Source: Pseudomonadales bacterium (GTDB lineage: Bacteria > Pseudomonadota > Gammaproteobacteria > Pseudomonadales > Azotimanducaceae). Taken from it: DNA of 55,938 nt. A program made the translations under genes and the position numbers. The stretch is taken from NCBI GenBank assembly GCA_007131295.1, contig SLQW01000115.1, positions 1 to 55,938 of the forward strand, read 5' to 3'. Shown here in pieces: positions 40,011 to 54,331 of the stretch (within the stretch, counting starts at the first letter, position 1; the number at the start of each line of letters is the position of its first letter). The notes under the pieces are model-generated. The model saw only the letters and a program-made list of their open reading frames with translations, ran no database searches and was not told the origin of the DNA.

Positions 40011-40955
40011 ATGAACGCCCGATCGATCATCGTCACGGTACTGTTCGGCCTGTTGGCTGCAACGACCTGGGGTCATCCCAATGTGCTCGAGCGGCAGCAG
40101 ATGTTCGAGGCCTTCGGTTGGGATCCTGAGACTGCCGAGATCACCGTCGAGGAAATAGCGCCTGGCCGCTACGTGCTGTTCGGCATCGGCGGTAACATTC
40201 TCGCCTCCATCGGCGAGCAGGGTGTGCTGCTGGTGGACGACCAGATTCCTGAGATACGCGACCGGATCGATGCGGCGCTGGCTGAGCTTGGTGCCGAAGG
40301 GGTGGATTTCATCATCAACACCCATTGGCATTTCGACCACGCCGACGGCAACCTGAGTTACGGACCGGACGGCGTCTGGCTGATTTCGCATTCGGCGTCG
40401 CGGCAGATGATGACCGAGGACCAGATCATCAACCTTGTGGGTGTCGCCTACAAGCAGGAAGCCTACCCGGTGGAGGCGCTGCCCGTGATCACTTTCGACG
40501 ATCGCATGCAGCTGCACTTCAACGGCGAGCGCATCGATCTCGTCCATACCGGTCCTGCGCATACCACCGGCGACGCGGCAGTGATCTTCCGGGGCCAGAA
40601 CATCGTCCACATGGGCGACGTGTTCGTGCTGACCGGCTGGCCCTTCATCGACCATGACAGCGGTGGCGACCTCGATGGCCTCATCGCATTCGTGCGCGCC
40701 ATTCTGGACGAGATCGACAATGACACCATCGTCGTTCCCGGCCATGGCCCGGTTTCGGATCGTGCAGCGATGGTCAGCTATCTGGAAGATCTCGAACGGG
40801 CGCGGGCGCGCATTGCGCGCATGATCGCCGAGGGGGCGGATCTCGAGGAGATCATCGCGGCCGAACCGACTTCGGATCTCGACGAGCGGCGCGGTGATTC
40901 GGCCATGTTCCTCGACCGGGCCTACCACAGCCTCAAGGAGTCGGTGCTGCCCTGA
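40011..40955 (+). CDS. Exported metallo-beta-lactamase-fold hydrolase
   Basis: A 314-residue MBL-fold protein with a signal peptide (about 1-21, TWGHP). The zinc motif is HWHFDH (105-110), followed by GPAHTTGD, GDVF and a C-terminal GHGPVSD. The His-X-His-X-Asp-His set is complete, so it should bind two metals and hydrolyse a substrate in the periplasm. The closest-looking groups are broad, including subclass B3-like and quinoprotein-associated hydrolases. ATG 40011 follows GAGGAGAGAGCC. Its 3' end overlaps that of the convergent phosphopantetheinyl transferase gene by 23 nt. Confidence 0.9.
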   Translation: MNARSIIVTVLFGLLAATTWGHPNVLERQQMFEAFGWDPETAEITVEEIAPGRYVLFGIGGNILASIGEQGVLLVDDQIPEIRDRIDAALAELGAEGVDFIINTHWHFDHADGNLSYGPDGVWLISHSASRQMMTEDQIINLVGVAYKQEAYPVEALPVITFDDRMQLHFNGERIDLVHTGPAHTTGDAAVIFRGQNIVHMGDVFVLTGWPFIDHDSGGDLDGLIAFVRAILDEIDNDTIVVPGHGPVSDRAAMVSYLEDLERARARIARMIAEGADLEEIIAAEPTSDLDERRGDSAMFLDRAYHSLKESVLP

Positions 40956-41619
40956 GCGGGGTCGCGACCGCCACGGCAGCTACGATTCGCGCCTGCCCCG
41001 GTACGGTGTTCAGAGGTGCGGCGCGCAGCTCGAGCTGGCCGCTGCGGAAGGTGACCTCCCCGTCCGTCGTCCGGGTCAGCTCGAGGTCCCCCAGCGCGGG
41101 CAGGCCGCGGCCGTCCGCCTTCAGGGCGGCTTCCACCAGCGTCCAGCGCTGCAGCAGACTCGGCTGAACCAAGTCGTCAGGCCAGGGCAGGCGCCGCGTC
41201 AGCGCATCCGAGACAGGTCTCGCGGCATCCTCCAGGTCCAGGCCGAGACGTCCGCCACCCGGCAGGACACCGGCTATGACCCACTTCCCGGTATGCGCAA
41301 CGGACAGGCTCAGCGGTTCTGCCCAGCGCAAGGCGCGGACGCGCGGTCGCCGCTGCGATCGCCGCTCCAGCGGCAGCAGCCGCGGTGCAATGTCGAGATA
41401 TCGCGTCAGCGCAAAGCGCAACAGCGCGCTGGCAAGCTGGAAGGCGCGGCGGCGCTCGGGGAAACGATGGCGACGGGCCATTAGACGATCGCGTCCGGTC
41501 AGCCAGGGCGCCATGGCATGCATGGCGGCGGGTGTATTCGGCAGCAGCCAGCAGCGGCCGCGAGCAGCCGTCGGTGGCGTCCGCAGGGGGATGGGCTGAG
41601 GCTGCGGCCGCTGCCCCAT
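40933..41619 (-). CDS. 4'-phosphopantetheinyl transferase, Sfp type
   Basis: A 228-residue protein with the two core motifs of Sfp-type transferases: GLDLED (metal-binding acidic residues) and WTLVEAALKADG, the W-x-x-K-E-x-x-x-K motif with Val in place of the first Lys. An AHT segment (LSVAHTGKWV) contacts CoA. The enzyme converts apo- to holo-carrier protein. It starts at the last base of the reductase stop (TGATG). It belongs to the ligase-reductase operon, so the dedicated carrier protein at 51560-51805 is the natural substrate. Confidence 0.87.
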   Translation of the reverse strand: MGQRPQPQPIPLRTPPTAARGRCWLLPNTPAAMHAMAPWLTGRDRLMARRHRFPERRRAFQLASALLRFALTRYLDIAPRLLPLERRSQRRPRVRALRWAEPLSLSVAHTGKWVIAGVLPGGGRLGLDLEDAARPVSDALTRRLPWPDDLVQPSLLQRWTLVEAALKADGRGLPALGDLELTRTTDGEVTFRSGQLELRAAPLNTVPGQARIVAAVAVATPLRAAPTP

Positions 41620-42563
41620 CAGCTGTCGCCGAGAACGCTGGCGAGCCCGCGCTGCAGCTCCATCCGGGGTGTCCAGCCGCTGGCCTGCCGGAACGCAGCG
41701 GTATCGCAGGACCAGTCCGGGTGGGTCAGTTCACGGACCTTGCCCGGCGTCAACATGGGTGCCCGGTGCAGTATCCGGGACAGGCCCAGATTCGTTTTTC
41801 CGAGGACGCTCAGCAGTGCCGTTGGCACCGGAATCGCGCGCACCTTCCGGCCGCGCAGCGTTGCGACCGCCGCACACAATTCCGACCAGGCGTAGCCGTC
41901 GGGGCGGTTGTCGGCGATCTCGAAGCAGCCGTCGATGCAGTCGACGCTGGCCGCGGCCGCGAGGATTGCCGCCACCGCGTCGTCGATGTGTATGAGGGTC
42001 ACGCGCGCCTCGGCCACGCCGGGCACGAAGGCCCAGCCGCGGGCCATGGCCTTGAGCAGGGGCAGCAGCTCCCGATCGCCCGGGCCGTAGATCGCAGTCG
42101 GGCGCAGCAGGGTCCAGCGGCAACGCGTATCGGCGCCGTAGAGATCCTCGGCGGCACGCTTGCTCGCCGCGTAATGAGAAAGCTCGGGCGCGCGCGCGGC
42201 GAGGGAAGAAAGATGGATGAGGCGTACGCCGGGGTGAACCTGGCCGACGCGCGCCAGCAGCATCTCCGTACCGGCTACGTTGACTCGGTCGAATGCTTCA
42301 CGGCTGGCGCCGCGTACGGCGCCAGCGCAGTGCACGACCAGCGAGGTATCCGCGATCAGGTGATCGATGGCGGCGGGGTCGGCCAGATCGCCTTGGATTC
42401 GCTCCACGGCGGCCGGGAGCTTCACATCCTGACGTCGCAGCAGCGCGCGGACGACGATGCCTTGCTCCACCAGCCGCGCGGTCAGGGCCCGGCCGACGAA
42501 GCCCGTGGCGCCGGTGACGGCAACCGGGCCGTGCAGTTCCGGACTGGAGAATGGATCCGTCAT
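41619..42563 (-). CDS. Extended SDR (NAD-dependent epimerase/dehydratase), CerR-like candidate
   Basis: A 314-residue extended SDR with nucleotide motif TGATGFVG near the N-terminus, LSSLAAR, and catalytic HYAASK. This is the atypical-reductase family to which Caulobacter CerR, reducing the 3-keto group of oxidised ceramide, belongs. A sterol or hydroxysteroid dehydrogenase-like function is the alternative. Its position, 23 nt after the fatty-acid ligase gene and overlapping the phosphopantetheinyl transferase, supports a step in lipid synthesis. The specific CerR assignment is inferred from context. Confidence 0.82.
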   Translation of the reverse strand: MTDPFSSPELHGPVAVTGATGFVGRALTARLVEQGIVVRALLRRQDVKLPAAVERIQGDLADPAAIDHLIADTSLVVHCAGAVRGASREAFDRVNVAGTEMLLARVGQVHPGVRLIHLSSLAARAPELSHYAASKRAAEDLYGADTRCRWTLLRPTAIYGPGDRELLPLLKAMARGWAFVPGVAEARVTLIHIDDAVAAILAAAASVDCIDGCFEIADNRPDGYAWSELCAAVATLRGRKVRAIPVPTALLSVLGKTNLGLSRILHRAPMLTPGKVRELTHPDWSCDTAAFRQASGWTPRMELQRGLASVLGDS

Positions 42564-42586
42564 GGCTGCGCCCGCAGGGGCGGGCC

Positions 42587-44320
42587 TCAGGAACCCTGCT
42601 CGGCGAGAGAGGCGAGGTAGTCGAGGCGCGCCTGGGAGCGAGACAGCTTACCGGAGGTGGTACGCGGCAGGCTGTGGGGTGGCACCGCCTGCACCCGCGC
42701 CTCGACCCCGAATTCGGCCTGAATGTCACGGCGGATCGCGCGCAGCATCTGCTCGCGGGCCTCCTCGTCCGGCTCGCGACATTGCAGCAGCACCACGAGC
42801 AGGCTGCCACCGTCCTCGGTGTCGATGGTGAATGCGGCCGCATCGGTCGTGCGTACCCCTGGATGCTGCTCGGCTACGTGTTCCACATCCTGCGGCCAGA
42901 TGTTGCGGCCGTTGACGATCATCAGGTCCTTACGGCGCCCCGTGATCACAAGCTCGCCGTCGACCATGTAGCCGAGATCGCCGGTGTCGAGCCAGCCGTC
43001 CTTGAGGATCTGAGCGTTGATTTCGGGTGCCGCGTAATAGCCTTCCATGGTGCTCGGTGTATGCAGGAAGATGGAACCTTCACGCCGCTCCGGCATCAGG
43101 CTGCCGTCCTCGGCCCGGATCTCCACCACGTAGCCGGGCAGGGGCTTGCCGCAGCGGGTGAAACGGGTGGTCCGGCCAGGCGCCGCCTGCCCGGGCTCCG
43201 GCGGGCGGTGCGCGTGGAGGTCGATGGTGTCGGCACGCATGCCGGTGCCTGGCGGGGTGAAGCTGACGGCAAGGGATACCTCGGCCATGCCGTAGGAAGG
43301 CAACAGGGCGCGGCGGTCGAATCCGGCGGGGGCGAGCGCGGTGGCGAAGCGCTCGAGCGTCTCCGGGCGGATCATGTCTGCCCCGCAGCCGGCAATGCGC
43401 CAGGCGCGGAGGTCGAGGTCGGCAGCGTCGCCCTCGCGCAGTCGACGGGTGGTGAGCTCGTAACCGAACGGTGGCGCGAAAGAAATGCTCGAGCGATGCT
43501 CGCTCAGAAGGCGTAGCCAGAGCCGCGGCCGCATGGCGAATTCGCGCGTGCCGAGATAATCGATGGAGGCCTGGCTCACCATCGGCACGATCAGTTTTCC
43601 GACCAGGCCCATGTCGTGGTACAGCGGCAGCCAGGAGCAGAAGCGATCCTGTTCGTCGAGCGCGAGGCCATCCTGAATGATGGCGTACACGTTGCGCAGG
43701 GTGGAACGCTCAGAGAGCATCGCGCCGCGTGGAAAGCGAGTGCTGCCCGAAGTGTACTGGATGTAAGCAAGCTCGCCGGGGTCGGGGGCCTCCGGCAGCT
43801 GCGCCGGGTCCCGGTGCAACAGCGTCTCGACGCTGCCGCTGAAGGCCAGTTCGTCGGCACCCGGCATGGCGTCGAGGAAGCTGGCAAAGGCGGCGCTGCC
43901 GAGGCAGACACGCGCATCTGCGTTGCTCAGCATGCGCCCGAGCAGGTCTACGAACTGACGCTGACCACCGAGATGCACCGTGGCCGGCAGTGGTACCGGG
44001 GTGAGCCCGGCGAAACGGCAGCCGAAGAACGCGACAGGAAAGTCGACGTGGGTCTCGGCGATGATGCCTACCTGAGTACCGCGAGGCAGTCCCAGGCTCG
44101 CGAGACGTTCTCCGGTGGCCCGCGCCTCGGTGCGGATCTCACCCCAGGTAACGGAACGGTCGAGACGGCCGCGCCCATCGTAGAAATTGACGCCGGTACC
44201 CGCACCGGCGGCGTAGTCCAGAGCCTCGAGCAGGGTTCTGAAGCCGGCCGTCCGCAGCGGCTGGGCCCGTTCCGTCGGTGTCACGCTGACAGGGTCGATC
44301 GGCTCGGCGGTTCCGGACAC
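42587..44320 (-). CDS. Fatty-acyl-AMP ligase (FAAL-like, acyl-ACP synthetase candidate)
   Basis: A 577-residue ANL-superfamily adenylating enzyme of the FAAL type. It has the AMP-binding loop YTSGSTRFPRG, the YGMAE motif, WLPLYHDMGL, and the C-terminal hinge TGDLGYMVDGELVITGRRKD followed by VNGRNIWPQDVE. FAALs activate fatty acids and hand them to a carrier protein. GTG 44320 is chosen because GGAG lies 7 nt upstream and the protein then starts VSGTAEP; the open frame to 44440 lacks a ribosome binding site. It is the first gene of a ligase-reductase-transferase operon. Confidence 0.92.
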   Translation of the reverse strand: MSGTAEPIDPVSVTPTERAQPLRTAGFRTLLEALDYAAGAGTGVNFYDGRGRLDRSVTWGEIRTEARATGERLASLGLPRGTQVGIIAETHVDFPVAFFGCRFAGLTPVPLPATVHLGGQRQFVDLLGRMLSNADARVCLGSAAFASFLDAMPGADELAFSGSVETLLHRDPAQLPEAPDPGELAYIQYTSGSTRFPRGAMLSERSTLRNVYAIIQDGLALDEQDRFCSWLPLYHDMGLVGKLIVPMVSQASIDYLGTREFAMRPRLWLRLLSEHRSSISFAPPFGYELTTRRLREGDAADLDLRAWRIAGCGADMIRPETLERFATALAPAGFDRRALLPSYGMAEVSLAVSFTPPGTGMRADTIDLHAHRPPEPGQAAPGRTTRFTRCGKPLPGYVVEIRAEDGSLMPERREGSIFLHTPSTMEGYYAAPEINAQILKDGWLDTGDLGYMVDGELVITGRRKDLMIVNGRNIWPQDVEHVAEQHPGVRTTDAAAFTIDTEDGGSLLVVLLQCREPDEEAREQMLRAIRRDIQAEFGVEARVQAVPPHSLPRTTSGKLSRSQARLDYLASLAEQGS

Positions 44321-44446
44321 GCTTGCTCCATGCGGTGGCTGGTGAGATCCGGAGCGGTGGCAGGAGCACGCGGCTGCCCGCATCAACGGACGGCCATGCA
44401 TCAGCCTGCACGCCGCCCTCGACCGCCTCACGGACGTCAAACGCCT

Positions 44447-44475
44447 ATTATGACGGCAATCGGTCCCGCTGGCAC
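44447..44475 (-). promoter_or_regulatory. Possible promoter for the ligase-reductase-transferase operon
   Basis: Read on the minus strand, GTGCCA (44475-44470) and CATAAT (44452-44447) are spaced by 17 nt, matching consensus at 4 and 5 of 6 positions. Transcription would start about 120 nt before the GTG at 44320. A 15-nt palindrome, CCTGCGGCCCGCAGG (44488-44502), lies just upstream in the divergent gap and could be an operator. Confidence 0.35.
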
Positions 44476-44584
44476 GCTTGCTCGGTCCCTGCGGCCCGCA
44501 GGCCGCGTGATTACTGGCTCGTGCCGCTGCGCCGGCCTTTCATCCTGAGTATCATGCGCGGCTGTTCTTTCGTGAGCTGTCAGC

Positions 44585-45436
44585 ATGGTTCCGCCCCCGC
44601 AACAGGCTGACCGGACGCCTGCGGCAACTGCACCCGCGTCTGTCGTCGCGGCCGTCCTCGCTGGGGCCCGCTCCCGTGAGGACACCGTTGCTGCAGCCGA
44701 AGGCGTCGCCACAAAGGTTTTTGCCGACATCGCGGGCGTACCCATGTTGCAGCGCGTTCTCGAAGTGATGCTTGCCGTCACAGGGCGTACGTCGGTGTAT
44801 CTCTCTGGTCCGGAGCATAGCCTGCTCGAAGCGACGTCCTGGCTCGCGGCACGCGTCGAGCGAGGCGAGGTTGCATGGCAGCCTCCGCAGGATTCGCCCG
44901 CTCTGAGCGCTGCCGCCGTGGTCGAGCGCGCGTTTGCAGCCGAGCCGGCGCCAGCTGCCGTACTCCTGACGACCGGCGACCACCCCCTGCTATCGGTCTC
45001 GACGGCGGAACGTTTCGTGGTCGATGCGCTGGCTGCGGGCACCGACGTGGCCGTCGGGCTGGCAAGGCACGCCGAAGTGCAGGCTGCTTTCCCGGGCAGC
45101 CGGCGCACGGCGCTGAAGCTTGCGGACGGACCGTTTTGTGGCTGCAACCTTTTCCTGATCCGCACCGATCGCGGTCGCGCCGTCCTCGATCTCTGGCGGC
45201 AGCTGGAAACGGATCGCAAGCGACCGTTGCGCATGGCGGCCACCCTGGGGTCGGGCATGATGCTGCGCTATCTCACTGGCCGGCTTACGTCCGCCTCGGT
45301 GGTCGGACGACTCGAAGCGCTGACCGGTGCAAGCGTTGCGGTCGTTCCCGTGACGGATCCGGATGCAGCGGTAGACGTGGATTCGCTGGCGGACCTCGCG
45401 ACGGTGCGCGCCCGCTGGCAGGTTCGCAGCGCATGA
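44585..45436 (+). CDS. MobA-like nucleotidyltransferase
   Basis: A 283-residue protein of the NTP_transf_3/MobA-like fold. The N-terminal nucleotide loop is present in altered form, AAVLAGARS rather than LAGGxS, followed by ATKVFADIAGVPMLQRVLE with the usual Lys. The metal-binding Asp is in LTTGDHPLL. C-terminal DVDSLADLATVRA resembles the end of such enzymes. It is the first gene of a six-gene chain with lipid genes, so it probably makes or uses a nucleotide-activated headgroup; that is inference. The start ATG 44585 has only a weak ribosome binding site. Confidence 0.8.
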   Translation: MVPPPQQADRTPAATAPASVVAAVLAGARSREDTVAAAEGVATKVFADIAGVPMLQRVLEVMLAVTGRTSVYLSGPEHSLLEATSWLAARVERGEVAWQPPQDSPALSAAAVVERAFAAEPAPAAVLLTTGDHPLLSVSTAERFVVDALAAGTDVAVGLARHAEVQAAFPGSRRTALKLADGPFCGCNLFLIRTDRGRAVLDLWRQLETDRKRPLRMAATLGSGMMLRYLTGRLTSASVVGRLEALTGASVAVVPVTDPDAAVDVDSLADLATVRARWQVRSA

Positions 45437-46389
45437 ATCGGCTCGCGATTCTCAGTAACCCCGGCAGTGGCGGCAACCGGGCCGCATCGTCCCGCTTCGC
45501 CACCCTGGACGGCCTCAGCGGTGTCGAACACCATTTGACGGGTCCGATCGAGGCGCTGCCGGAGCTTCTGACCGGGATACTCGCCCGACGGCCGGCGGCG
45601 CTCGCGGTCAATGGCGGCGACGGCACCCTGCAGGCGGTGCTGACGGTGCTGCTCGCTCGCGACGACCTCGATGTTCCGCCGCTGTTCGCGCTGCCGGGGG
45701 GCTCCACCAATATGAGCGCGCGGGACCTGGGCTCCGGTGCGTCCCTGCGCGCGGCCCTGCATGCGTTTCTCGCCCTGCGGGACCGGCCCGCCGCTACCTG
45801 GCCGGTGGAACGACGTCCCGTGCTCGAAGTACGGGATGCACAGGGTCGGCTGTTCGCCGGGTTGTTCTTCGGGGTCGGGACCATAGTCCGCGGAGCCGAG
45901 TTCTGGAATAAGGAACTCGGTGCGGCGCGCCGTGCTGGAGAGTTGGCCGCCGGCGTCGCCTTTGCGCGCGGTGCCTGGGGGATCCTGCGGCGCCAGCCGC
46001 CGTTTGCTGAAGGCACCCGCCTGCGGCTTGCTTTCGACGCTGCTGCGAGCAGTACGGACGCGCGAGTCTCACTGCTGCTGGTCACCGTGATGCGGCGGTT
46101 GTTTCTCGGCATGACGCCGTTCTGGGGAAGTGACGCCGGGGCGCTGGCTTGCACCTGGCTCGATGACCCGCCGCGACGCCTGCTGCGTCGGTTGCCAGCG
46201 CTCCTGCGTGGCCAGGGCGAGCGCTTGTGTGCCGACGAGGGCTACAAAAGCCAGCGTTGTAACCGGGTCGACATCGGGATCGAGGAGAGTTGGCTGCTCG
46301 ATGGCGAGCTCCATCCCGGTGGCGGTACGCTCAGGCTCTGTGCGAGCCGACCCTTGCCCTTCATCGATCTCCGGCGCGAGCTGACATGA
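45433..46389 (+). CDS. Diacylglycerol/ceramide-kinase-like lipid kinase
   Basis: A 318-residue DAGK-catalytic-domain protein. The start LAILSNPGSGGNR and the ATP-binding motif GGDGT (61-65) are diagnostic; PGGSTNMSARDLG stands for the usual GTANDxARxL. A C-terminal beta-sandwich with GIEESWLLDGEL matches the D-G-E segment of lipid kinases. The neighbours point to ceramide as substrate, as for the Caulobacter ceramide kinase CpgB of the same domain family, but diacylglycerol is not excluded. It starts at the ATGA overlap with the nucleotidyltransferase gene. Confidence 0.87.
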   Translation: MNRLAILSNPGSGGNRAASSRFATLDGLSGVEHHLTGPIEALPELLTGILARRPAALAVNGGDGTLQAVLTVLLARDDLDVPPLFALPGGSTNMSARDLGSGASLRAALHAFLALRDRPAATWPVERRPVLEVRDAQGRLFAGLFFGVGTIVRGAEFWNKELGAARRAGELAAGVAFARGAWGILRRQPPFAEGTRLRLAFDAAASSTDARVSLLLVTVMRRLFLGMTPFWGSDAGALACTWLDDPPRRLLRRLPALLRGQGERLCADEGYKSQRCNRVDIGIEESWLLDGELHPGGGTLRLCASRPLPFIDLRRELT

Positions 46390-47288
46390 GTGGCGCGCGC
46401 CTCGGTCCTGTGGCGCGGGAGCAGATCCGGTCGGTGCTGCGCGCGGAGGCGGCGCGCCCCGCGCAGCCGGAGGTAGAGGTGTTGCTGGCCGCGTTGCGGG
46501 CGCGCTTCGGCGAGTGCTACGTGGGTGCCCTCTACTATGGTTCCTGCCGGCGCCAGGCTGTAGTCGAGGGCCTGATCGACCTGCATGTGCTGGTGACCGA
46601 CCCACGACGCGCGCTCGGTCGCGTTTCTGGAACCCTGTGCCGGCTGCTACCGCCCAACGTCTACTATCTCGAAGCCAGTCACGGTGACGCGGTGGTGCGC
46701 TGCAAATATGCCGTGCTGTCGCTGCGGCAGTTCCAGAAGGTCTGCACGCGTGCCGCGTTCCACTCCTATTTCTGGGCGCGCTACGCCCAGCCCCTGACCG
46801 TGCTCGACGTGACGGACCGGGAGCGCGTACTGGACAGCCTCGTGGATGCCGTGGAAACCCTCGCCGTGCGGGCCCTGCCGCTGCTGCCCGAGGACGTGGA
46901 TTGGGAGGGTTTCTGGGTGCAGACCCTGGGCTGGTGTTACCGGGCCGAGCTGCGCGCGGAAGGCGGTGGTCGGGCCGGGACACTGGTGGCGGCCCATCCG
47001 GACTATTATCGCGCCGTCGGCGAGGCCGTACTGGCTGATCTGACATCGGGTCGGCGCCCTGCAGCGCGCCTGGCGTGGTGGCTGCGGATCGCCGTGGGCA
47101 AACCACTGTCGCTGGCACGCTTGCTCAAGGGCCTGTACACCTTCGACGGCGGGCTCGACTATGTGGCCTGGAAACTGGAACGACACACCGGCCGTCCGGT
47201 CGAAATCCCCGAACGGGTCCGGCGGCGCCCGTTGATCCATCTCTGGCCTCTGATCTGGAAACTCTGGCGCGAGGGCATGTTTCGATGA
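46386..47288 (+). CDS. Tam41-like cytidylyltransferase family protein
   Basis: A 300-residue protein that I recognise by pattern as Tam41-like (mitochondrial phosphatidate cytidylyltransferase family). Segments align in order: ALYYGSCRRQ (Tam41 YGSGxxxQ), LIDLHVLVTDP (the D-F-I-x-A-V stretch), NVYYLEA, CKYAVLSLRQF (KYGVIS) and SYFWARYAQPL (LYxAGRLxKP). Tam41 makes CDP-diacylglycerol from phosphatidate and CTP. Being directly after a lipid kinase gene in an SPT locus, this protein may make CDP-ceramide; that step is inference. It overlaps both neighbours by ATGA. Confidence 0.72.
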   Translation: MSGARLGPVAREQIRSVLRAEAARPAQPEVEVLLAALRARFGECYVGALYYGSCRRQAVVEGLIDLHVLVTDPRRALGRVSGTLCRLLPPNVYYLEASHGDAVVRCKYAVLSLRQFQKVCTRAAFHSYFWARYAQPLTVLDVTDRERVLDSLVDAVETLAVRALPLLPEDVDWEGFWVQTLGWCYRAELRAEGGGRAGTLVAAHPDYYRAVGEAVLADLTSGRRPAARLAWWLRIAVGKPLSLARLLKGLYTFDGGLDYVAWKLERHTGRPVEIPERVRRRPLIHLWPLIWKLWREGMFR

Positions 47289-48058
47289 ATGACGCAGTCT
47301 CCGACGAGACACGCAGCAGGCGCGGAGTGCTGCAGCTGCTGGCCAAGCGCGGCGTTCGCGCCTTGAACGATTTTCAGGGCCGACATTCGCCGATCGGCAT
47401 CGCGCCGATCTTCCCGGAAGCCCGTGTGTTTCCGTTCACGGTGCCCCTGGAGGATGCCTGGCAGGATATCCGAGCCGACCTCGACGAGGTGCTGAAACGG
47501 CGCGAGGACGTGCCGGCTTTCCATCAGATATCGCCGGATCAGGCGCGGATCTCCAAGGGTGACAACTGGAAGACCTTCACGTTCTACGTGATGGGTCACC
47601 GGGTGGACGACAACTGCGCCCAGTGCCCGCGGACGGCTGCGCTTCTCGATCGGCTGCCCGGGCTGCAGAACGCGTTTTTTTCGATCCTTGCGCCGCGTTA
47701 CCACATTCCGCCGCACTGCGGGCCCTCCCGGGCCCTGCTGCGTGCCCACCTCGGGCTCAAGGTGCCGAGCGACCGCGACAACTGTTGGATCCGGGTCGAT
47801 CAGCAGCGGCATCACTGGCAGGAAGGCAAGGTGGTCGTGCTCGATGACACCTATGAACACGAGGTGCGCAACGACACGGATCAAGAACGTGTGGTCCTGT
47901 TCCTCGATTTCGATCGCCCCATGGATCTGCCGGGCCGTATCGTCGACGGTCTGCTGGTGCGAGTAATGCGGGCCACGGCGTTCGTTCGCGATCCCTTGCG
48001 CAATCTCGAAGCGTGGCGCAACCGGCGTGGGCCGGACCCTGACCAGGTCGCTCCATGA
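47285..48058 (+). CDS. Aspartyl/asparaginyl beta-hydroxylase family dioxygenase (LpxO-like)
   Basis: A 257-residue Fe(II)/2-oxoglutarate dioxygenase of the Asp_Arg_Hydrox fold. It includes the metal- and cosubstrate-binding segments IPPHCGPSRALLRAHLGL and VLDDTYEHEVRNDT. The WKTFTFYVMG segment after NDxQG-like regions is typical of the LpxO branch, which hydroxylates a fatty acyl chain of lipid A. Located among sphingolipid-type genes, it may hydroxylate the ceramide acyl chain or long-chain base. There is no signal peptide and no strong membrane helix. It overlaps the neighbours by ATGA on both sides. Confidence 0.85.
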   Translation: MNDAVSDETRSRRGVLQLLAKRGVRALNDFQGRHSPIGIAPIFPEARVFPFTVPLEDAWQDIRADLDEVLKRREDVPAFHQISPDQARISKGDNWKTFTFYVMGHRVDDNCAQCPRTAALLDRLPGLQNAFFSILAPRYHIPPHCGPSRALLRAHLGLKVPSDRDNCWIRVDQQRHHWQEGKVVVLDDTYEHEVRNDTDQERVVLFLDFDRPMDLPGRIVDGLLVRVMRATAFVRDPLRNLEAWRNRRGPDPDQVAP

Positions 48059-49113
48059 CTGTCGATCGCTACTTCATGCGGGAAATGCTGCTGCCGTTCC
48101 TGGCGGGCTGGTTCCTGCTGTCGGCAATTTTCGCCGCGTACATTGCCGCGGGACTGCTGCAGGATGCCGCTGCTGCCGGACTGGCGCCGGCTTCGCTCTG
48201 GGCGCTGGTGCTGCTGCGCTGCATGATCGCTGCGGAGGTGATCGTTCCGACCTCCATGTTCTTCTCCGTGCTGTTCGCGTTCGAGCGCATGAATCGTGAT
48301 CGGGAACTGGTCGCGCTGTTTGCGGGTGGCTGGTCGCGGGCGCGCATGCTCATGCCGGTGCTCGGCATCGGCTTCGTGATGGTTGTCGTGGTGGCCGTGC
48401 TCACGCTGCAGGCGCGGCCGTGGGCCTATCGCACCGTGGACCTGGTTCAGGACCGCGCGGCCCGCCCCGACGTGGCTGCCATGCAGCCCGGTCGCTTTTA
48501 CGGCCTGAGCAACGAGCTGGTCCTGACCGCCGGACGCATCGACTACGCAGGAGAATTCCTCGAGGACGTGTTCGCCCGGCAGCAACGCATCCTCGGCGAC
48601 CGCCTGATTCGCGCCGAGCGTGCCCGTCTAGCGCCCCAGCAGGCGGATGGCTCGAATCTGGTGGAGTTCTTCAACGGCCAGGTGGTGACGCTCGGAGCCA
48701 ATGCGGCCGGCGACACCCGGCATGGGTTTGAGCGTCTCGGCGTGCGCTGGCGTGATGCTCCCGCAGAAGATGACGAGATCACCGATCGCCGCTCGCGGCC
48801 GTCCCTGGATCTTCGTTTTTCGGAAATGCCGAAGGAGATCGCCGAGCTGCAGTGGCGGGTTACGCTGCCCTTTCTGACGTTCGGGATGACCCTGATTGCC
48901 GGCGTGCTCGGGTCCACCGCGCCGGGGCGGGTCACGGCCTTGCGCATGCTCGCTGCCATCGGTACGTACGTGGTGGTGTTCAACGTGGCGGCAGCGGCCC
49001 GGAGTGCCCTGGAGAACGGCAACCTGGCGGTGTTCCCCGGGATTTTCTGGCTGCCTCTGTTGCCGTTGGCCCTGACTGTTCTGGTTCTGCTCTGGTCGAG
49101 GCGTAACGGATGA
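48055..49113 (+). CDS. lptF: LptF-family permease
   Basis: A 352-residue inner-membrane protein of the LptF/LptG family. Helices lie at about 10-33, 47-75 and 98-120, followed by a periplasmic beta-jellyroll domain (about 125-265) and three more helices (about 270-292, 300-322, 328-348). LptF and LptG form the LptB2FG transporter that extracts LPS from the inner membrane. Because it is encoded in a lipid-synthesis operon, a specialised pair for another lipid is possible. If no other copy exists, it is the housekeeping one. It starts at ATGA overlap with the dioxygenase gene. Confidence 0.87.
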   Translation: MTVDRYFMREMLLPFLAGWFLLSAIFAAYIAAGLLQDAAAAGLAPASLWALVLLRCMIAAEVIVPTSMFFSVLFAFERMNRDRELVALFAGGWSRARMLMPVLGIGFVMVVVVAVLTLQARPWAYRTVDLVQDRAARPDVAAMQPGRFYGLSNELVLTAGRIDYAGEFLEDVFARQQRILGDRLIRAERARLAPQQADGSNLVEFFNGQVVTLGANAAGDTRHGFERLGVRWRDAPAEDDEITDRRSRPSLDLRFSEMPKEIAELQWRVTLPFLTFGMTLIAGVLGSTAPGRVTALRMLAAIGTYVVVFNVAAAARSALENGNLAVFPGIFWLPLLPLALTVLVLLWSRRNG

Positions 49114-50174
49114 TCCGCATCACGCGCATGGATCGCTACATTGCGGCGGAGCTGTTCCGCGGCTATGCCGTGGTGGCTGCTGTGCTCGTGGCCCTGTTTT
49201 CGGTCATGGCCTTCATCGACGAATTGGGGCGTATCGGCGACGGCATGTACAACGCGGCTCAGGCGTTCGCCTTCGTGCTGATGACTACGCCGAGCCGTGT
49301 GCTGCGGCTGCTGCCCTTCATCGCGCTGTTCGGGGGCGCCCTGGCGATCTGGCAGCTCGCCCGCCGCAGCGAACTGGTCATTCTGCGCGCGGCGGGTCTT
49401 TCGATCCGGCGCTTCGCGCTCTCCACCATGCTGCCCGGCCTGGTGCTGGTACTGCTGGTGCCCGTGCTCTATGAGTTCGTCGCGCCGGCCCTGTATCAGG
49501 GTGCGACCATGAGCCGCGACACCGCTATCGGTGGAGAAGGGCGTGCGGCGCAGGGGTTCTGGTCCCGTCAGGGCGACGTGGTCATCGAGGTGCGCGGTCT
49601 GGAGTACGGGCGAGTGCCGGTGGACATCCGCATTTATCGCCTGACGCCTGATGCCGGTCTCGACTCGATCATGGAAGCGACATCTGCGGACCCCCAGGAC
49701 GACGGTACCTGGCGGCTGCAGAATGCACGCCAGAGGTTCTACCGCGAGGATCGGGTGGAGTACGAGCCTCTGCCCTTCGACGCCTGGCGCCCGTGGTGGG
49801 CCGACGACACGCCGCTCAACCCGCCGCCGGTCGATAGCCTTTCGTTCAGTGACCTGCGTGGCTACATCGATTACCTGGCAGATACCGGTCAGCCGCGGCA
49901 GCGCTGGGAACTGGCGTACTGGCGCATGTGGCTGCTGCCGGTATCGGCGCTGCTGATGGGTCTGCTGGCGGTTCCGATCGCCCTGATGGGTCCTCGGGAG
50001 GGTGAAATCAAGTTTGTCGGGCTGGCCGCTGGTGGCGGCCTGTTTTACTACCTCGGTGACCAGGTGGTCGCAAATGCCGTGCTCGTCAGCGGTGCCCCGC
50101 CGCTGGTGGCCGCATTGGTACCGCCTCTTGCGCTGGCGGTGGTGGTGACGATCATCCTGCGACGGATCGACTGA
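49110..50174 (+). CDS. lptG: LptG-family permease
   Basis: A 354-residue partner of the preceding protein. Its N-terminus ITRMDRYIAAELFRGY aligns with the LptG start. LARRSELVILRAAGLS is the conserved coupling segment facing LptB. A jellyroll domain (about 130-260) and C-terminal helices with GLFYYLGDQVVANAVL follow. It shows clear family-wide resemblance to E. coli LptG. No LptB ATPase gene is present nearby, so the housekeeping LptB would have to serve it. It ends the six-gene plus-strand chain. Confidence 0.88.
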   Translation: MIRITRMDRYIAAELFRGYAVVAAVLVALFSVMAFIDELGRIGDGMYNAAQAFAFVLMTTPSRVLRLLPFIALFGGALAIWQLARRSELVILRAAGLSIRRFALSTMLPGLVLVLLVPVLYEFVAPALYQGATMSRDTAIGGEGRAAQGFWSRQGDVVIEVRGLEYGRVPVDIRIYRLTPDAGLDSIMEATSADPQDDGTWRLQNARQRFYREDRVEYEPLPFDAWRPWWADDTPLNPPPVDSLSFSDLRGYIDYLADTGQPRQRWELAYWRMWLLPVSALLMGLLAVPIALMGPREGEIKFVGLAAGGGLFYYLGDQVVANAVLVSGAPPLVAALVPPLALAVVVTIILRRID

Positions 50175-50200
50175 GGGCCGGCGGCGACCGGACCTGCGCT

Positions 50201-50248
50201 CGCAACTGCGTCTGCAACTGCGTCCGCAACTGCGTTCGCAACTGCGTC
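50201..50248. repeat. Four tandem copies of a 12-bp unit
   Basis: The unit CGCAACTGCGTC occurs four times in tandem (50201, 50213, 50225, 50237) with one base change in two of the copies, plus a partial CGCA. It sits between the LptG stop and a terminator hairpin, so it is noncoding. Each unit contains the short palindrome CGCAnnTGCG. Confidence 0.8.
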
Positions 50249-50263
50249 CGCACAGTAAACGAA

Positions 50264-50291
50264 ACGGCCGGGGAACGATGTCCCCGGCCGT
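50264..50291. terminator. Bidirectional terminator between lptG-like and SPT genes
   Basis: A perfect 11-bp stem (50264-50274 with 50281-50291; ACGGCCGGGGA arm, loop ACGATG) lies between the two convergent genes. A-rich sequence on the left (AAACGAA) gives a short U run for minus-strand transcripts, whereas the right side is only TATG. It probably ends both operons. Confidence 0.7.
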
Positions 50292-50338
50292 ATGTTCATC
50301 AGTGAGCGGATCCGCGGTTTGAGGCGGGCTGGCCCCGC

Positions 50339-51556
50339 TTAGAGACTACCGCCGGCAGCAGCCTTAGGCCGGCTCAGCAGGTGTTCTGCCACCAACGAGT
50401 AGGCGCTGATGATGCTGTCGATCTGCTCGGCGGAGTGGGCTGCGGAGAGGCTGCAACGAAGAATGCTCAGGTTCTTGGGTGCACCCGGTGGAACAACCAG
50501 GTTCACGTAGACGCCAGCATCGAGCAGCATCTGCCAGGCATCGGCTGCCTGCTGCGGCGAATCCATGATCGTGGCAATGACCGGACTCGCATCGGCACCG
50601 AGGGTGAATCCCAACTGCGACAAGGCGCTGTGAACCCGCTTGGCGTTGTTCCACAACCGGGTACGCAGTTCCGGGCGCTTGCCGATGAGCTTCAGGGCAG
50701 CCCGGGTCGAGGCGATCACCGAGGGCGTCGACGACGCGGTGAACATGTAGGCGCGGATCTGTGCCCGCAGCGGGTTGATGTCGTGCCTGCGGCTCGCGCA
50801 GTACCCGCCGACGCTGCCGAGACTCTTGGAGAAGGTCCCGGTGATGAAGTCGACCTGGTCTTCGCAGCCCTGGTCTTCGGCAAGACCACGGCCGTTAGTG
50901 CCCATGGTGCCGAAACTGTGGGCGTCGTCGAGCAGGAGGTAGGCGCCGTAGCGGTCTTTGACCTCACAGATCTCTTTCAACGGCGATACGTCGCCAAGCA
51001 TGCTGTAAAGGCCTTCGGCGATGACCAGGGTGCGGCTCGCGCGCTCGCCGAGCCGGCGCAGGCGTTTCGCCAAGTCTTCCGGATCGTTGTGACGGAATCG
51101 ATAGACCTCGGCACCGGAGAGCTTCGCGCCTTCGTAAATGCTGGCATGAGAATCCGCGTCGAGCACGATCACGTCACCGGGGCCGGCCAGCGTGGAGATG
51201 GTGCCCACATTGGCCACGTAGCCGGTCGTGAATACGATGGCAGATCGGGCGTCGAGGAAATCCGACAGCTCCTGCTCGAGGGAGGCATGGCAGCCGTAGG
51301 TGCCATTCGCGAGCCGCGAACCGGTAGTGCCGGTGCCATGACTGCGCACTGCATTCACCGCCGCGTCGACACACTCCGGGTCGAAGGTCAGCCCGAGGTA
51401 GTTGTTGGTGCCCGCCAACACGACCCGGTTGCCAGCGATCTCACCTTCGGTCGCAGACCCTGCGACGTCGATGGTGGCGCCGATGGCATGTACCCCGAGG
51501 GCTTGAAGAACGTCCTGGCTGCGCTGGGCAGCCTCGAGTTTTTCCAGAAGGCTCAT
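50339..51556 (-). CDS. spt: Serine palmitoyltransferase-like alpha-oxoamine synthase
   Basis: A 405-residue PLP enzyme of the alpha-oxoamine synthase family. PLP-Lys244 lies in GTFSKSLGSVGG, the GTFSKSxGxxGG form typical of bacterial SPT. Other residues are His137 in DSHAS and Asp210 in LDDAH, where most relatives have DEAH. SPT condenses L-serine with an acyl thioester to 3-ketosphinganine. 2-amino-3-ketobutyrate ligase and 8-amino-7-oxononanoate synthase are the alternatives. The carrier-protein gene 3 nt upstream and the locus favour SPT. Confidence 0.87.
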   Translation of the reverse strand: MSLLEKLEAAQRSQDVLQALGVHAIGATIDVAGSATEGEIAGNRVVLAGTNNYLGLTFDPECVDAAVNAVRSHGTGTTGSRLANGTYGCHASLEQELSDFLDARSAIVFTTGYVANVGTISTLAGPGDVIVLDADSHASIYEGAKLSGAEVYRFRHNDPEDLAKRLRRLGERASRTLVIAEGLYSMLGDVSPLKEICEVKDRYGAYLLLDDAHSFGTMGTNGRGLAEDQGCEDQVDFITGTFSKSLGSVGGYCASRRHDINPLRAQIRAYMFTASSTPSVIASTRAALKLIGKRPELRTRLWNNAKRVHSALSQLGFTLGADASPVIATIMDSPQQAADAWQMLLDAGVYVNLVVPPGAPKNLSILRCSLSAAHSAEQIDSIISAYSLVAEHLLSRPKAAAGGSL

Positions 51557-51559
51557 TGG

Positions 51560-51805
51560 TCACCGATCAGTTAATTGTTGGACCCGACGTGCCAGATCGG
51601 AAATCGTTCTGACGTCACCCAGCTCGTTGATGGGAAACGAGATGTCGAAGACGTCTTCGAGCTGCTCTATGACCTCCATGACGTCCAGGGACGCCAAGCC
51701 GAGCTCTTCGATCAGGTCTACGTCTTCGCCGACCACCTCACCCTTAGCGACCGTCGACTGCAGCATCTGCTGAATCTGCGCGACACAATCGTTATAAGTT
51801 GTCAT
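51560..51805 (-). CDS. Acyl carrier protein dedicated to the SPT gene
   Basis: An 81-residue acyl carrier protein with the phosphopantetheine attachment site Ser39 in LGLASLDVMEV. This is ASLD rather than the usual DSLD. The surrounding four-helix pattern is normal for an ACP. ATG 51805 gives the typical start MTTYNDCVAQIQQML; an in-frame ATG at 51832 has a G-rich stretch upstream but only 2 nt spacing. The SPT gene begins 3 nt after its stop, so the pair is co-translated. The pairing matches the Caulobacter AcpR-Spt arrangement. Confidence 0.88.
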   Translation of the reverse strand: MTTYNDCVAQIQQMLQSTVAKGEVVGEDVDLIEELGLASLDVMEVIEQLEDVFDISFPINELGDVRTISDLARRVQQLTDR

Positions 51806-52169: not shown

Positions 52170-52946
52170 TCAGGAACCAGTCTTGCCGGCGCCGGCGTAG
52201 GCGGCCGTCGGATCTTCGAGACGAAGGTAACGACGCAGCCAGTGCGTCAGCATGTAGAACGGACCCGTATCCACCAGGGCCACACTCATCTTGAACAGGT
52301 AATTGCTGCCCATGAGGACGAAGAGCGTGGCGAGAGCCACGTCTCCCGCTAAAAATGCGGCGCCAAACGTTACAGTAATAACCATGATCGAGTCCACCAT
52401 CTGGCTGATCAGGGTAGAGAAATTGTTCCGAAGCCAGAGGTGGCGGCCTTTGGTGAGCCGCTTCCAGAAGTGAAACAGCTGGACGTCGCAGAACTGTGCG
52501 GCGATGTAAGCGAGCATGGATGCGAACACTGCGCCGGAGGTGCAGTAGTAGAGCAGCTGGAAGAACTCCACCGACCCCACAACCACTTCGCCGTTGGGCA
52601 GGGCGACGGCCTCCTCCAGGGCCAGAACCTGCCATGGAGGCTGGGCCTCGGGGCTCACCGCGGGCAGCGCCTGGGCCAGCCACATGGTGCCGAGGATGAA
52701 GAAGTTCAGGCCAAGTCCTGTCCAGACCAGAAAGTTGGCCCGAGCGCGGCCATAGAGCTCGCTTATGAGGTCGGTGCAGAGAAAGGTCAGCGGATAGGGC
52801 AGGACGCCTACTGCGAGAGCCATCGGGCCGAGCTGGACGAAGCGCGTGATGCCGATCACGTTCAACAAAGTCATCGCGCACAGGAAGGTCCCGGCGAGCA
52901 CGATGAATACGCGCTCGCGCCGCTCGGTGAGCTCAGCGTCGGTCAT
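52170..52946 (-). CDS. yhhQ: Queuosine precursor transporter (YhhQ/VUT family)
   Basis: A 258-residue inner-membrane protein of the VUT family with about six helices. Conserved segments are PYPLTFLCTDLISELYGRARAN near the first third and WLRNNFSTLISQMVDSIMVI later. The E. coli homologue takes up queuosine precursors such as preQ0 and preQ1 for tRNA modification. The start ATG 52946 lies 25 nt after the SDR stop on the same strand. Confidence 0.93.
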   Translation of the reverse strand: MTDAELTERRERVFIVLAGTFLCAMTLLNVIGITRFVQLGPMALAVGVLPYPLTFLCTDLISELYGRARANFLVWTGLGLNFFILGTMWLAQALPAVSPEAQPPWQVLALEEAVALPNGEVVVGSVEFFQLLYYCTSGAVFASMLAYIAAQFCDVQLFHFWKRLTKGRHLWLRNNFSTLISQMVDSIMVITVTFGAAFLAGDVALATLFVLMGSNYLFKMSVALVDTGPFYMLTHWLRRYLRLEDPTAAYAGAGKTGS

Positions 52947-52971
52947 GGTCTTGAGTCCTCGAGGCAGGGCG

Positions 52972-53673
52972 TCAGCGCTCGAGCTGGCCCAGGTTGGCGT
53001 GGAGCACTGCGCCGTTGATCACCGGGTGCAGCGCCGCCCAGATAATGGCCTCGGCGATCTCTTCCGGCGTGATGAGGCGACCGAAGGCCGACATGGAGGC
53101 GACCGCCTGCTCGGTTTCGGGGTCGGTGCCGATGTGCGAGCGCAGCATCTCGGTGTCGGTGAAGCCGGGGCAGATGCAGGCGGTGTGGATACCGCGTCCG
53201 GCCAGATCCTGGCAGGTCGCACGCATCATGCCGATGGTCGCGTGCTTGGTGGTCACGTACGAATAGGAATTCGGTACCGCCTTTTCGGACAGCGTCGATC
53301 CCACGTAGATCACCGCTGATCCCGGCTTCATCGCTGGTAGAAGGGCAGCGTTCAGGGCATTGGGTGCCGCAAGATTTATCTGCAGGACCTCGCGAAAATC
53401 CGCGTCCGCCGTCGCGTCGGCGCGATCGTTGCGCAGCAGCGAAGCGTTGTGCACGAGGACGAGCGGGTTTGCCTCGGCGACAACTCCCAACAGATCGTCG
53501 CAGGCGCGCTGAACGGCCTGCGGGTCGCTGAAATCGCAGGCGATGCTGGTCGCGCCTGCTACTGGGCAGGGGCGACGGGAAAGATTGGTCACGGCCCAGC
53601 CCGCGGCGAGAAAACCCGCGGCGGTGGCCGCTCCGATGCCCGCGCTCGCACCACTGATGATGACCTGCTTCAT
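52972..53673 (-). CDS. SDR coupled to the PTPS gene (sepiapterin-reductase-like context)
   Basis: A 233-residue short SDR: cofactor motif SGASAGIG (7-14), Arg in LSRRPCP favouring NADPH, HNAS in place of NNAG, and YSYVTTKHA carrying the catalytic Tyr-Lys. ATG 53673 is chosen because it overlaps the stop of the upstream PTPS-family gene as ATGA, giving translational coupling. The coupling suggests reduction of a pterin side chain, as sepiapterin reductase does. A different carbonyl substrate is possible. Confidence 0.83.
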   Translation of the reverse strand: MKQVIISGASAGIGAATAAGFLAAGWAVTNLSRRPCPVAGATSIACDFSDPQAVQRACDDLLGVVAEANPLVLVHNASLLRNDRADATADADFREVLQINLAAPNALNAALLPAMKPGSAVIYVGSTLSEKAVPNSYSYVTTKHATIGMMRATCQDLAGRGIHTACICPGFTDTEMLRSHIGTDPETEQAVASMSAFGRLITPEEIAEAIIWAALHPVINGAVLHANLGQLER

Positions 53674-54209: not shown

Positions 54210-54331
54210 GAGGCACTCCAGCTCGGAACGTTGGCGCCGGCATTCTGCCATGGCGAGCGGTGCAGGTCGCGAGCCGGCCTGGCCGATGGTAGCGTTTTGC
54301 CTTCGGCGAGGGAGACGAGAGAGGCGATGAC

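Follow-up and report, generated by a model that had tools for sequence, protein, structure and literature searches.

Which lipid does a sphingolipid locus make in a lineage where the ceramide synthase is not found? As described in part of PMC11324152, the proteobacterial ceramide pathway comprises five genes, aasR, acpR, spt, cerR and cerS; whether acylation precedes reduction in bacteria is disputed (PMC11087976 and PMC9386255, both in part). The window, the whole 55,938-nucleotide stretch of a Pseudomonadales bacterium contig analysed here, carries counterparts of aasR, acpR, spt and cerR together in one locus, and profile searches for the ceramide synthase, bCerS, gave no match in the window, its own genome or ten related genomes. 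Judging from sequence, we consider it likely that the locus is functional and of the Caulobacter type, serving to make and export phosphosphingolipids in a lineage without the known ceramide synthase.

A gammaproteobacterial sphingolipid locus is by itself ordinary. Such loci have been published for E. coli B / BL21, Azotobacter (A. vinelandii) and P. luteola (PMC9386255 and PMC11324152, in part), which contradicts the original prediction that these lipids are not typical of gammaproteobacteria and disposes of any claim that they are new there. In a 145-genome sample of the order, SPT was found in 31 genomes (E ≤ 1e-100), the window's own included. What is out of the ordinary is that the pathway has been kept without bCerS.

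Eleven genes in one sphingolipid-type locus

Eleven genes at 40933-51805 form one sphingolipid-type locus, whose parts match the proteobacterial phosphosphingolipid locus of the Caulobacter CC_1168-CC_1152 type. The features are:

40933..41619, minus strand: probable 4'-phosphopantetheinyl transferase (PPTase); HetI model and ACPS, both under cut-off; neighbour of CerR
41619..42563, minus strand: CerR-like extended SDR (3-ketosphinganine / oxidised-ceramide reductase); PF01370, E 3e-24
42587..44320, minus strand: AasR-like fatty acyl-AMP ligase / acyl-ACP synthetase; NF006624, 688.6 bits, cut-off 600
44321..44584, no strand: gap of ≤264 bp between ligase and nucleotidyltransferase; the bCerS slot in bCerS-bearing relatives
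44585..45436, plus strand: MobA/CofC-like nucleotidyltransferase, CC_1153 position; PF12804, E 7e-8
45433..46389, plus strand: CpgB-like lipid kinase (DAGK_cat, GGDGT motif); PF00781, E 2e-10
46386..47288, plus strand: Tam41-fold nucleotidyltransferase, CpgC (CC_1161) position; profile, AlphaFold2 model and synteny
47285..48058, plus strand: LpxO/OlsC-like lipid hydroxylase (Asp/Asn beta-hydroxylase family); PF05118, E 6e-55
48055..49113, plus strand: LptF, sphingolipid-locus clade; TIGR04407, 233.6 bits, cut-off 230; tree
49110..50174, plus strand: LptG, outside the canonical LptG clade; TIGR04408, 260.5 bits, cut-off 240; tree
50339..51556, minus strand: serine palmitoyltransferase (SPT); NF047599, 577.6 bits, cut-off 500
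51560..51805, minus strand: AcpR-like acyl carrier protein; PF00550, E 4e-9

The original prediction named ten of these genes, all of which lie at 40933-51805, and missed the nucleotidyltransferase at 44585-45436; the kinase, the Tam41-like protein and LptF/LptG keep the company expected of them, and its assignment of the locus to sphingolipids is borne out by the SPT model, the SPT tree and the gene company. The order ACP-SPT, LptG-LptF-hydroxylase-CpgC-kinase-nucleotidyltransferase, FAAL-CerR-PPTase is kept in the four members of the window's genus (g1) that carry the whole locus (G001, G002, G004 and G005), and the genes have counterparts in other loci. The G002 nucleotidyltransferase is visible only as a 38-residue match, and ~4 kb separates SPT from LptG in G005. 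The G003 locus lies on a 3.8 kb contig holding LptG to CpgC only, and no SPT was matched there because the contig stops after LptG.

The window genes are 25-54% identical to those of loci in Roseomonas, a Pseudomonas plasmid, Diaphorobacter, Qipengyuania and E. coli BL21. The dN/dS values of all 11 genes (window versus G001 and G005) are 0.06-0.38, and by this measure purifying selection acts on every one of them; the locus is not a chance grouping. The genome is a draft assembly of 98% completeness. A tRNA scan and an Rfam search at gathering scores returned nothing.

Genes for the long-chain base

The predicted product of 50339..51556 is a serine palmitoyltransferase, expected to condense L-serine. 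It passes the curated SPT model and falls below the cut-offs for BioF (330.3 vs 426.45), both KBL models (322.3 vs 460; 281.1 vs 493) and ALA synthase (ALAS). In the tree its neighbours are SPTs, with E. coli KBL and BioF standing apart; the tree was rerooted, and support on the branch separating SPT from KBL/BioF is not safely readable. Neither profiles nor tree group it firmly with KBL or BioF, the check proposed at the outset. The alignment conserves TFSKSLG, DADSHAS and DDAHS, which we take to hold the PLP lysine and neighbouring His/Asp residues. That the enzyme is an acyltransferase of the KBL/BioF or cysteate type, and that the locus does not serve sphingolipids, is highly improbable: all belong to one common fold family and PDB matches include KBL (E 2e-69) and cysteate fatty acyltransferase (E 2e-59), but SPT structures (E 1e-111) are ahead by ~40 orders of magnitude, and the model scores, the tree and the gene company all speak for SPT.

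The carrier protein is 28-49% identical to carriers of three sphingolipid loci and keeps the attachment-site serine in the alignment. The ligase is 43-51% identical to ligases of five such loci (its start codon is uncertain, the frame being open to 44440), and the CerR-like SDR 36-42% identical to SDRs of four. The PPTase, a probable assignment, is the weakest of the locus: it reaches 19.3 bits with Pfam ACPS (cut-off 25) and E 7e-10 with the HetI model, far under cut-off. In four genus members its gene adjoins CerR, and partial matches place it there in loci of the sister genus (g11) as well. Beside acpR-spt, g1 and g11 have in common, among the matches listed, a queuosine transporter, an SDR, a QueD-like protein and an alpha/beta hydrolase.

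Kinase, CpgC-type protein, nucleotidyltransferase and hydroxylase

The kinase is 28-39% identical to five sphingolipid-locus kinases, and its gene is adjacent to that in the CpgC position. Equivalence of the two to CC_1160/CC_1161 was assigned through the Roseomonas locus order, which is that published for Caulobacter (PMC11324152, in part), rather than through comparison with the Caulobacter proteins. The CpgC-type protein matched no Pfam model. Its family profile matched Tam41 6ig2 (E 1.1e-5), and its AlphaFold2 model (pLDDT 89.9) aligned with CTP-bound bacterial Tam41 7ecd over 219 of 300 residues (Z 18.0) and with 6ig4 at Z 15.7, the next fold scoring Z 7.5. From profile, model and synteny we predict that the protein is a CTP:lipid-phosphate cytidylyltransferase.

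The MobA/CofC-like nucleotidyltransferase matched TTHA0179 2dpw (E 6e-20) and is 38-40% identical to those of four other sphingolipid loci; its gene overlaps the kinase gene by 4 bp. CpgA, CpgD and the CC_1158-type metallophosphoesterase of fuller loci are absent from the window locus, and because of this the head group is not nameable. The hydroxylase meets only the superfamily model PF05118, scoring 228 bits of the 450 needed for OlsC and 114.6 of 500 for LpxO; it is 47% identical to the hydroxylase of the Pseudomonas plasmid sphingolipid locus.

Absence of the known ceramide synthase

The original prediction named a ceramide synthase as part of the pathway and did not remark on its absence here. 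In the 145-genome sample, bCerS profile A1 matched 23 of the 33 genomes bearing the CpgC-type gene (a weak match in G117, E 2e-17, with no CpgC match, was left out), and those lacking it are exactly the six of six from g1 and the four of four from g11. Among 25 further named CpgC-bearing genomes, representing 24 of the 47 named loci whose flanks hold no bCerS, together with L143, which has bCerS in its flank, 24 matched; the only one without a match, G145, groups with g11. These 24 include two divergent matches (G146 and G147; E 5e-51 and 9e-48), a broken one (G151) and a partial one at a contig edge (G156). Taken together, 58 genome entries carry the CpgC-type gene and bCerS was matched in 47 of them; these are entries rather than proven distinct species, as the 25 may overlap the sample.

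The position of the gene is also informative. bCerS adjoins the nucleotidyltransferase in 12 of 12 loci read from the sample, 8 of which have the ligase on the opposite flank of bCerS, and in 27 of 32 named loci. It measures ~1.1 kb; the corresponding gap in the window is ≤264 bp. In the trees of SPT, ligase and CpgC, g1 and g11 group together in a single clade (support 1.0, 1.0 and 0.993) that is nested among loci with bCerS; the CpgC clade also takes in one MAG, whose place there is probably due to transfer. The g1/g11 lineage thus placed seems to have lost the known ceramide synthase, a loss that implies an unknown second-chain enzyme or an unusual lipid.

We lean towards the former, N-acylation by an unlinked, non-homologous acyltransferase, as more likely than a one-chain sphingoid lipid. 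Under the latter, which we regard as unlikely, there would be no N-acylation, and CerR, CpgB and CpgC would act on the free long-chain base to give a one-chain phospholipid derived from sphinganine-1-phosphate. No bCerS homologue was detected while the other genes are retained under selection, and no new gene fills the bCerS slot of the window, as this would predict. A one-chain lipid, however, would be an odd outer-membrane component, and the locus has kept a hydroxylase of the LpxO/OlsC type, a family whose known members modify the acyl chains of completed lipids.

Less probable than N-acylation by a non-homologous enzyme, and improbable overall, is that bCerS is present yet was missed through incomplete assembly or extreme divergence. 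All 11 genomes of the g1/g11 clade are drafts, and other genomes hold bCerS-like proteins just 24-33% identical to a relative's bCerS. G069 (88% complete), outside g1/g11 and the 33 CpgC-bearing genomes, has SPT and matched neither bCerS nor CpgC, probably through its draft state; both are present in G017 and G048, of the same genus. Against this, the gene is absent in all ten rated genomes (90-98% complete), while the same profile succeeded in 47 of the 58 entries; a broader profile, A5, with divergent members included, recovered the control G151 and found nothing in the 11 genomes save one weak match (G004, 31 residues, E 0.93); and the sequence across the slot next to the nucleotidyltransferase is unbroken in the window and in several loci of g1 and g11.

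Candidates for a replacement were considered. In 27 of the window ORFs outside the locus, Pfam at two cut-offs found no acyltransferase. The hydroxylase was rejected, since two loci with bCerS, G020 and G087, carry it as well and every g11 locus lacks it; so was the PPTase, which catalyses another reaction. A search for a gene restricted to g1 and g11 gave, among the matches listed, only the shared neighbours of acpR-spt named above, which are more simply read as ordinary conserved context. G151 (CP070738.1) was discarded as evidence: its bCerS match is broken and its nucleotidyltransferase matches are split over ~350 kb, which looks like rearrangement or misassembly; it is counted with the bCerS-matching genomes.

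The LptF/LptG pair

The locus LptF/LptG is the only such pair found in the 98%-complete genome. Its LptF belongs, with support of 1.000, to a clade of LptFs from sphingolipid loci, apart from canonical ones; the Roseomonas and Diaphorobacter locus LptFs branch outside that clade. LptG does not fall within the canonical clade (0.983 with E. coli K-12). The locus LptGs, however, form no single supported clade, the branches between groups are weak, and some other locus LptGs lie nearer the canonical proteins (0.491). With LpxC present in the genome, LPS is probably produced, and the locus pair may serve both lipids. We think it rather unlikely that the pair is an ordinary LPS exporter lying beside sphingolipid genes by happenstance: it is the sole pair found, LPS is probably made and both proteins pass curated LPS-export models (TIGR04407 and TIGR04408), but the LptF clade and, within the limits of the weak LptG branches, the position of LptG argue otherwise, and two genus members also carry a canonical pair beside pepA and valS. 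Quite doubtful is a bolder combination in which both sister genera export phosphosphingolipids without an N-acyl chain, CerR acting on 3-ketosphinganine, and some species have the sphingolipid-type LptF/LptG as their only Lpt permease, carrying LPS too.

Proposed pathway

In the pathway that we propose, the PPTase would activate the carrier protein, the AasR-like ligase would load it with a free fatty acid, and SPT would condense the acyl-carrier with serine to 3-ketosphinganine, to be reduced by the CerR-like SDR. The CpgB-like kinase would phosphorylate the lipid and the Tam41-fold CpgC-type protein would activate the lipid phosphate with CTP; the CC_1153-type nucleotidyltransferase may help to build an anionic head group and the LpxO/OlsC-like enzyme may hydroxylate a chain. 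LptF2/LptG2 would export the product to the outer membrane.

A pathway under selection without the known ceramide synthase points either to a family of ceramide synthases yet to be discovered or to a novel class of lipid. It is relevant, too, to the acylation-versus-reduction dispute, since a CerR working without bCerS must reduce free ketosphinganine or depend on another acyltransferase. The modelled Tam41 fold suggests a concrete, testable activity for the CpgC step, the enzyme chemistry of which is described as unresolved in part of PMC11324152.

Comparison with known systems

Like the Caulobacter crescentus CC_1168-CC_1152 ceramide phosphoglycerate locus (PMC11324152, PMC10331486, PMC12275187), the window locus has SPT, AcpR, AasR, CerR, a CpgB-type kinase, a Tam41-type protein in the CpgC position, a CC_1153-type nucleotidyltransferase and its own LptF/LptG. 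Unlike it, the locus has no CpgA, CpgD or CC_1158-type phosphoesterase, the genome has no detected bCerS, and an LpxO/OlsC-like hydroxylase and a PPTase are added. The pathway had been described as extended; this holds for the latter two genes, whereas activation and export genes are already in the Caulobacter locus as published.

The yghO-spt locus of E. coli BL21 (PMC9386255, in part) is likewise gammaproteobacterial and shares ligase, CerR, ACP, SPT, LptF and LptG, but has yghO (bCerS), which the window lacks. In the BL21 stretch shown no gene is annotated as lipid kinase, and the window kinase and Tam41-like protein had no match among the BL21 locus proteins compared. The locus on plasmid pPNP1 of Pseudomonas sp. 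JS425 shares SPT, ACP, CerR, ligase, nucleotidyltransferase, LptF and LptG, and also kinase, CpgC-type protein and an Asp/Asn-type hydroxylase (47% identical). Unlike the window, it has CpgA- and CpgD-type genes, a glycosyltransferase and a bCerS sequence in separated pieces, with an IS5 transposase annotated between them. The CpgC-type protein resembles Tam41 CDP-diacylglycerol synthase (PDB 6ig2, 6ig4, 7ecd) in fold and short sequence signatures; it differs in sequence, with 13-14% identity over the structural alignment, and in its predicted substrate, a sphingoid lipid phosphate.

A sphingolipid locus of known kind

The window does contain a sphingolipid locus (40933–51805), and it belongs to a known type. 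Its source genome is a draft of 3.87 Mb in 222 contigs, 98.17% complete, in which the window is contig C126, and the locus comprises eleven genes:

One side of the locus, minus strand: PPTase, CerR-like SDR and fatty acyl-AMP ligase (AasR-like, 42587–44320)
Between the minus-strand groups, plus strand: nucleotidyltransferase (MobA/CofC-like, 44585–45436), DAGK-type kinase, Tam41-like protein (46386–47288), hydroxylase, LptF and LptG (pair, 48055–50174)
Farther along the locus, minus strand: SPT and carrier protein

The genes listed in the original prediction proved real, although the nucleotidyltransferase had been overlooked. From the nucleotidyltransferase to LptG, each plus-strand gene overlaps the next by 4 bp. 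Upstream lie an SBP_bac_5 binding protein (29124–30713) and an Amidohydro_3 protein (37418–39148), both apparently unrelated to the locus.

A grouping of the SPT with 2-amino-3-ketobutyrate ligase (KBL) or BioF would have spoken against a ceramide locus, and none was found. The protein scored 577.6 bits on the curated SPT model NF047599 (cut-off 500) and fell below the cut-offs for BioF (330.3 vs 426.45), KBL (322.3 vs 460; 281.1 vs 493) and ALA synthase (253.8 vs 338.55). Among solved structures it matched SPTs at E ~1e-111 and KBL at 2e-69, and in the tree it lay among SPTs from 30 other loci, apart from E. coli KBL and BioF, with support for the dividing branch unreadable after rerooting. 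By these sequence-based tests the enzyme classifies as an SPT.

Of 72,556 plasmid records, 17 encode a protein related to the Tam41-like one; through them, annotated comparison loci were found in Roseomonas and Pseudomonas and, in part, in Diaphorobacter and Qipengyuania. In Roseomonas haemaphysalidis the gene order is ACP, SPT, Tam41-like protein, kinase, CDP-alcohol transferase, phosphoesterase, DUF2141 and HIT, followed by two LptF/LptG permeases, a homologue of the known bacterial ceramide synthase (bCerS; CC_1154/YghO family) annotated as a dATP pyrophosphohydrolase, a nucleotidyltransferase and a cytidylyltransferase. Save for DUF2141, this is the Caulobacter CC_1163–CC_1152 order as described in PMC11324152, where CC_1161 is linked to a CDP-DAG-synthase-type domain. 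By position in this order, the Tam41-like protein corresponds to CC_1161 (CpgC). Identities to the locus counterparts found were 51–54% for SPT, 43–51% for the ligase, 36–42% for CerR, 38–40% for the nucleotidyltransferase, 30–37% for CpgC, 28–39% for the kinase, 28–49% for the carrier, 25–31% for LptF, 28–34% for LptG and 47% (one locus) for the hydroxylase; the PPTase had no match in the compared loci. On the Pseudomonas sp. JS425 plasmid, which also has intI1 and sul1, the bCerS sequence is broken into two parts that flank an annotated IS5 transposase (L050 8854–10895).

CpgC is predicted to be a Tam41

A CpgC family survey (581 confirmed matches, 79 loci kept) traced the family, by submitters' labels, into Alphaproteobacteria, Nitrospirota, Desulfobacterota and Marinimicrobia; a small contig labelled a Klebsiella pneumoniae MAG (L186), probably wrongly, also has such a locus. 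The family profile (27 sequences) matched mitochondrial Tam41 (6ig2) at E 1.1e-5, with KY(A/G)V and R-F-x-x-P as common stretches and YGS only in a further, insignificant alignment. In structural comparison, an AlphaFold2 model of the window protein (mean pLDDT 89.9; 33-sequence alignment) scored Z 18.0 against the CTP-bound Tam41 of a bacterium, 7ecd (rmsd 3.1 over 219 residues), and Z 15.7 against 6ig4; aminoglycoside nucleotidyltransferase, the fold ranking after Tam41, scored 7.5. The modelled CpgC has the fold of a Tam41 and is predicted to make a CDP-activated sphingoid lipid. Search listings of the open-licence literature showed no report of this fold for CpgC, and the word Tam41 is absent from PMC11324152.

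A lineage apparently without the known ceramide synthase

In the 145-genome sample of the order, bCerS adjoins the nucleotidyltransferase in 12/12 loci where it was read, with the divergent ligase gene on its other side in 8 of them; the adjacency holds in 27 of 32 named bCerS-bearing loci. At the corresponding place the window has no more than 264 bp between genes (44321–44584). Searching the window by tblastn with four bCerS proteins (best E 0.28) and its genome with YghO (best E 0.21) gave nothing.

CpgC-type proteins occur in 33 of the 145 genomes, the window's own included. bCerS was found in 23 of these (E 4e-111 or better); the ten without it are all six of the window's genus (g1) and all four of its sister genus (g11). 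Among 25 further named CpgC-bearing genomes, 24 had a bCerS match (two divergent, one broken, one partial at a contig edge), and the exception, G145, groups with g11 in the tree. A wider profile, built from 14 bCerS proteins with divergent members among them and searched to E 10 over the 11 g1, g11 and G145 genomes, returned only a 31-residue stray in G004 (E 0.93); the control, G151, matched at 1e-49. One genome outside these genera counts against the pattern: G069 (88% complete) has SPT and neither a CpgC nor a bCerS match, likely through an assembly gap because its genus mates carry both. On chromosome CP070738.1 (L145/L230) the bCerS match is broken and the nucleotidyltransferase matches are split across ~350 kb, suggesting rearrangement or misassembly.

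Gammaproteobacteria that lack bCerS in a locus otherwise intact did not come up in search listings of the open-licence literature. The Black Sea paper (PMC11334938) already names, as one possibility for Cloacimonadota, that non-homologous proteins have taken the place of bCerS and CerR.

Probable loss of bCerS and retention of the remaining genes

Since g1 and g11 join in the SPT (1.0), ligase (1.0) and CpgC (0.993) trees, the simplest reading is that bCerS was lost once, in their common ancestor. Their CpgC clade also includes a MAG labelled Trueperaceae with divergent bCerS genes, probably via horizontal transfer. On its contig SLRS01000097.1 (L143/L227/L228), a kinase (48% identical to the window's) and a CpgC (65%) adjoin two divergent bCerS-like genes, together with an SPT-like protein that groups with KBL/BioF; this mix reflects either gene transfer or a mixed bin.

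When the window was compared with two relatives, G001 and G005, dN/dS was 0.06–0.08 for SPT and the hydroxylase and 0.07–0.18 for the carrier, and no gene exceeded 0.38; given these low values, the pathway does not look like one in decay. In G005, ~4 kb separates SPT and LptG (L125 5493–9617). Loci of g1 and g11 share, next to acpR-spt, a queuosine transporter, an SDR, a QueD-like PTPS and an alpha/beta hydrolase (window 52170–55039). Among the matches listed, no other neighbours set the bCerS-less clade apart; for three of the four (transporter, PTPS, hydrolase) the other loci compared, with their limited flanks, gave no match. These genes are probably inherited context.

The export genes

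The window LptF falls in a clade of sphingolipid-locus LptF proteins (support 1.000) that includes E. coli BL21 LptF; those of the Roseomonas and Diaphorobacter loci branch outside it. The canonical LptG clade, which includes the E. coli K-12 protein (0.983), excludes the window LptG, and the locus LptGs do not form one supported clade, those of four genomes (G016, G017, G024, G036) being nearer the canonical proteins (0.491). The 48055–50174 pair (LptF2/LptG2) is the only LptF/LptG found in the 98%-complete genome, where LpxC is present. Two of six g1 genomes have an additional pair next to pepA and valS, the arrangement of E. coli K-12; in the other four and in the four g11 genomes, which are draft assemblies, the locus-type pair was the only one found. 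The canonical pair has either been lost, leaving the sphingolipid-type pair to serve LPS too, or lies in assembly gaps.

Proposed pathway and comparison with known systems

Judged by homologues of studied proteins, the route would run to 3-ketosphinganine and then reduction, the kinase would phosphorylate the lipid and LptF2/LptG2 would export it; from its fold, CpgC would carry out CTP activation. The N-acylation step is one for which the locus has no known enzyme, and this apparent lineage-wide absence of bCerS is what is new and merits lipid measurement. The locus contains no CpgA, CpgD or phosphoesterase gene from which a head group could be named.

The original prediction had held such lipids not to be typical of gammaproteobacteria, a class in which loci of this kind are already known; placement of the window's genus in that class follows submitters' labels. 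The related E. coli BL21 locus carries yghO (bCerS), ligase, CerR, ACP, SPT, LptG and LptF. In Caulobacter, PMC11324152 describes two of six tested genes, CC_1160 (CpgB) and CC_1161 (CpgC), as needed for the first head-group lipid, CPG, whereas mutants of CC_1153, the counterpart of the window nucleotidyltransferase, make CPG and no CPG2. On this basis a CPG-like product is possible in the window lineage.
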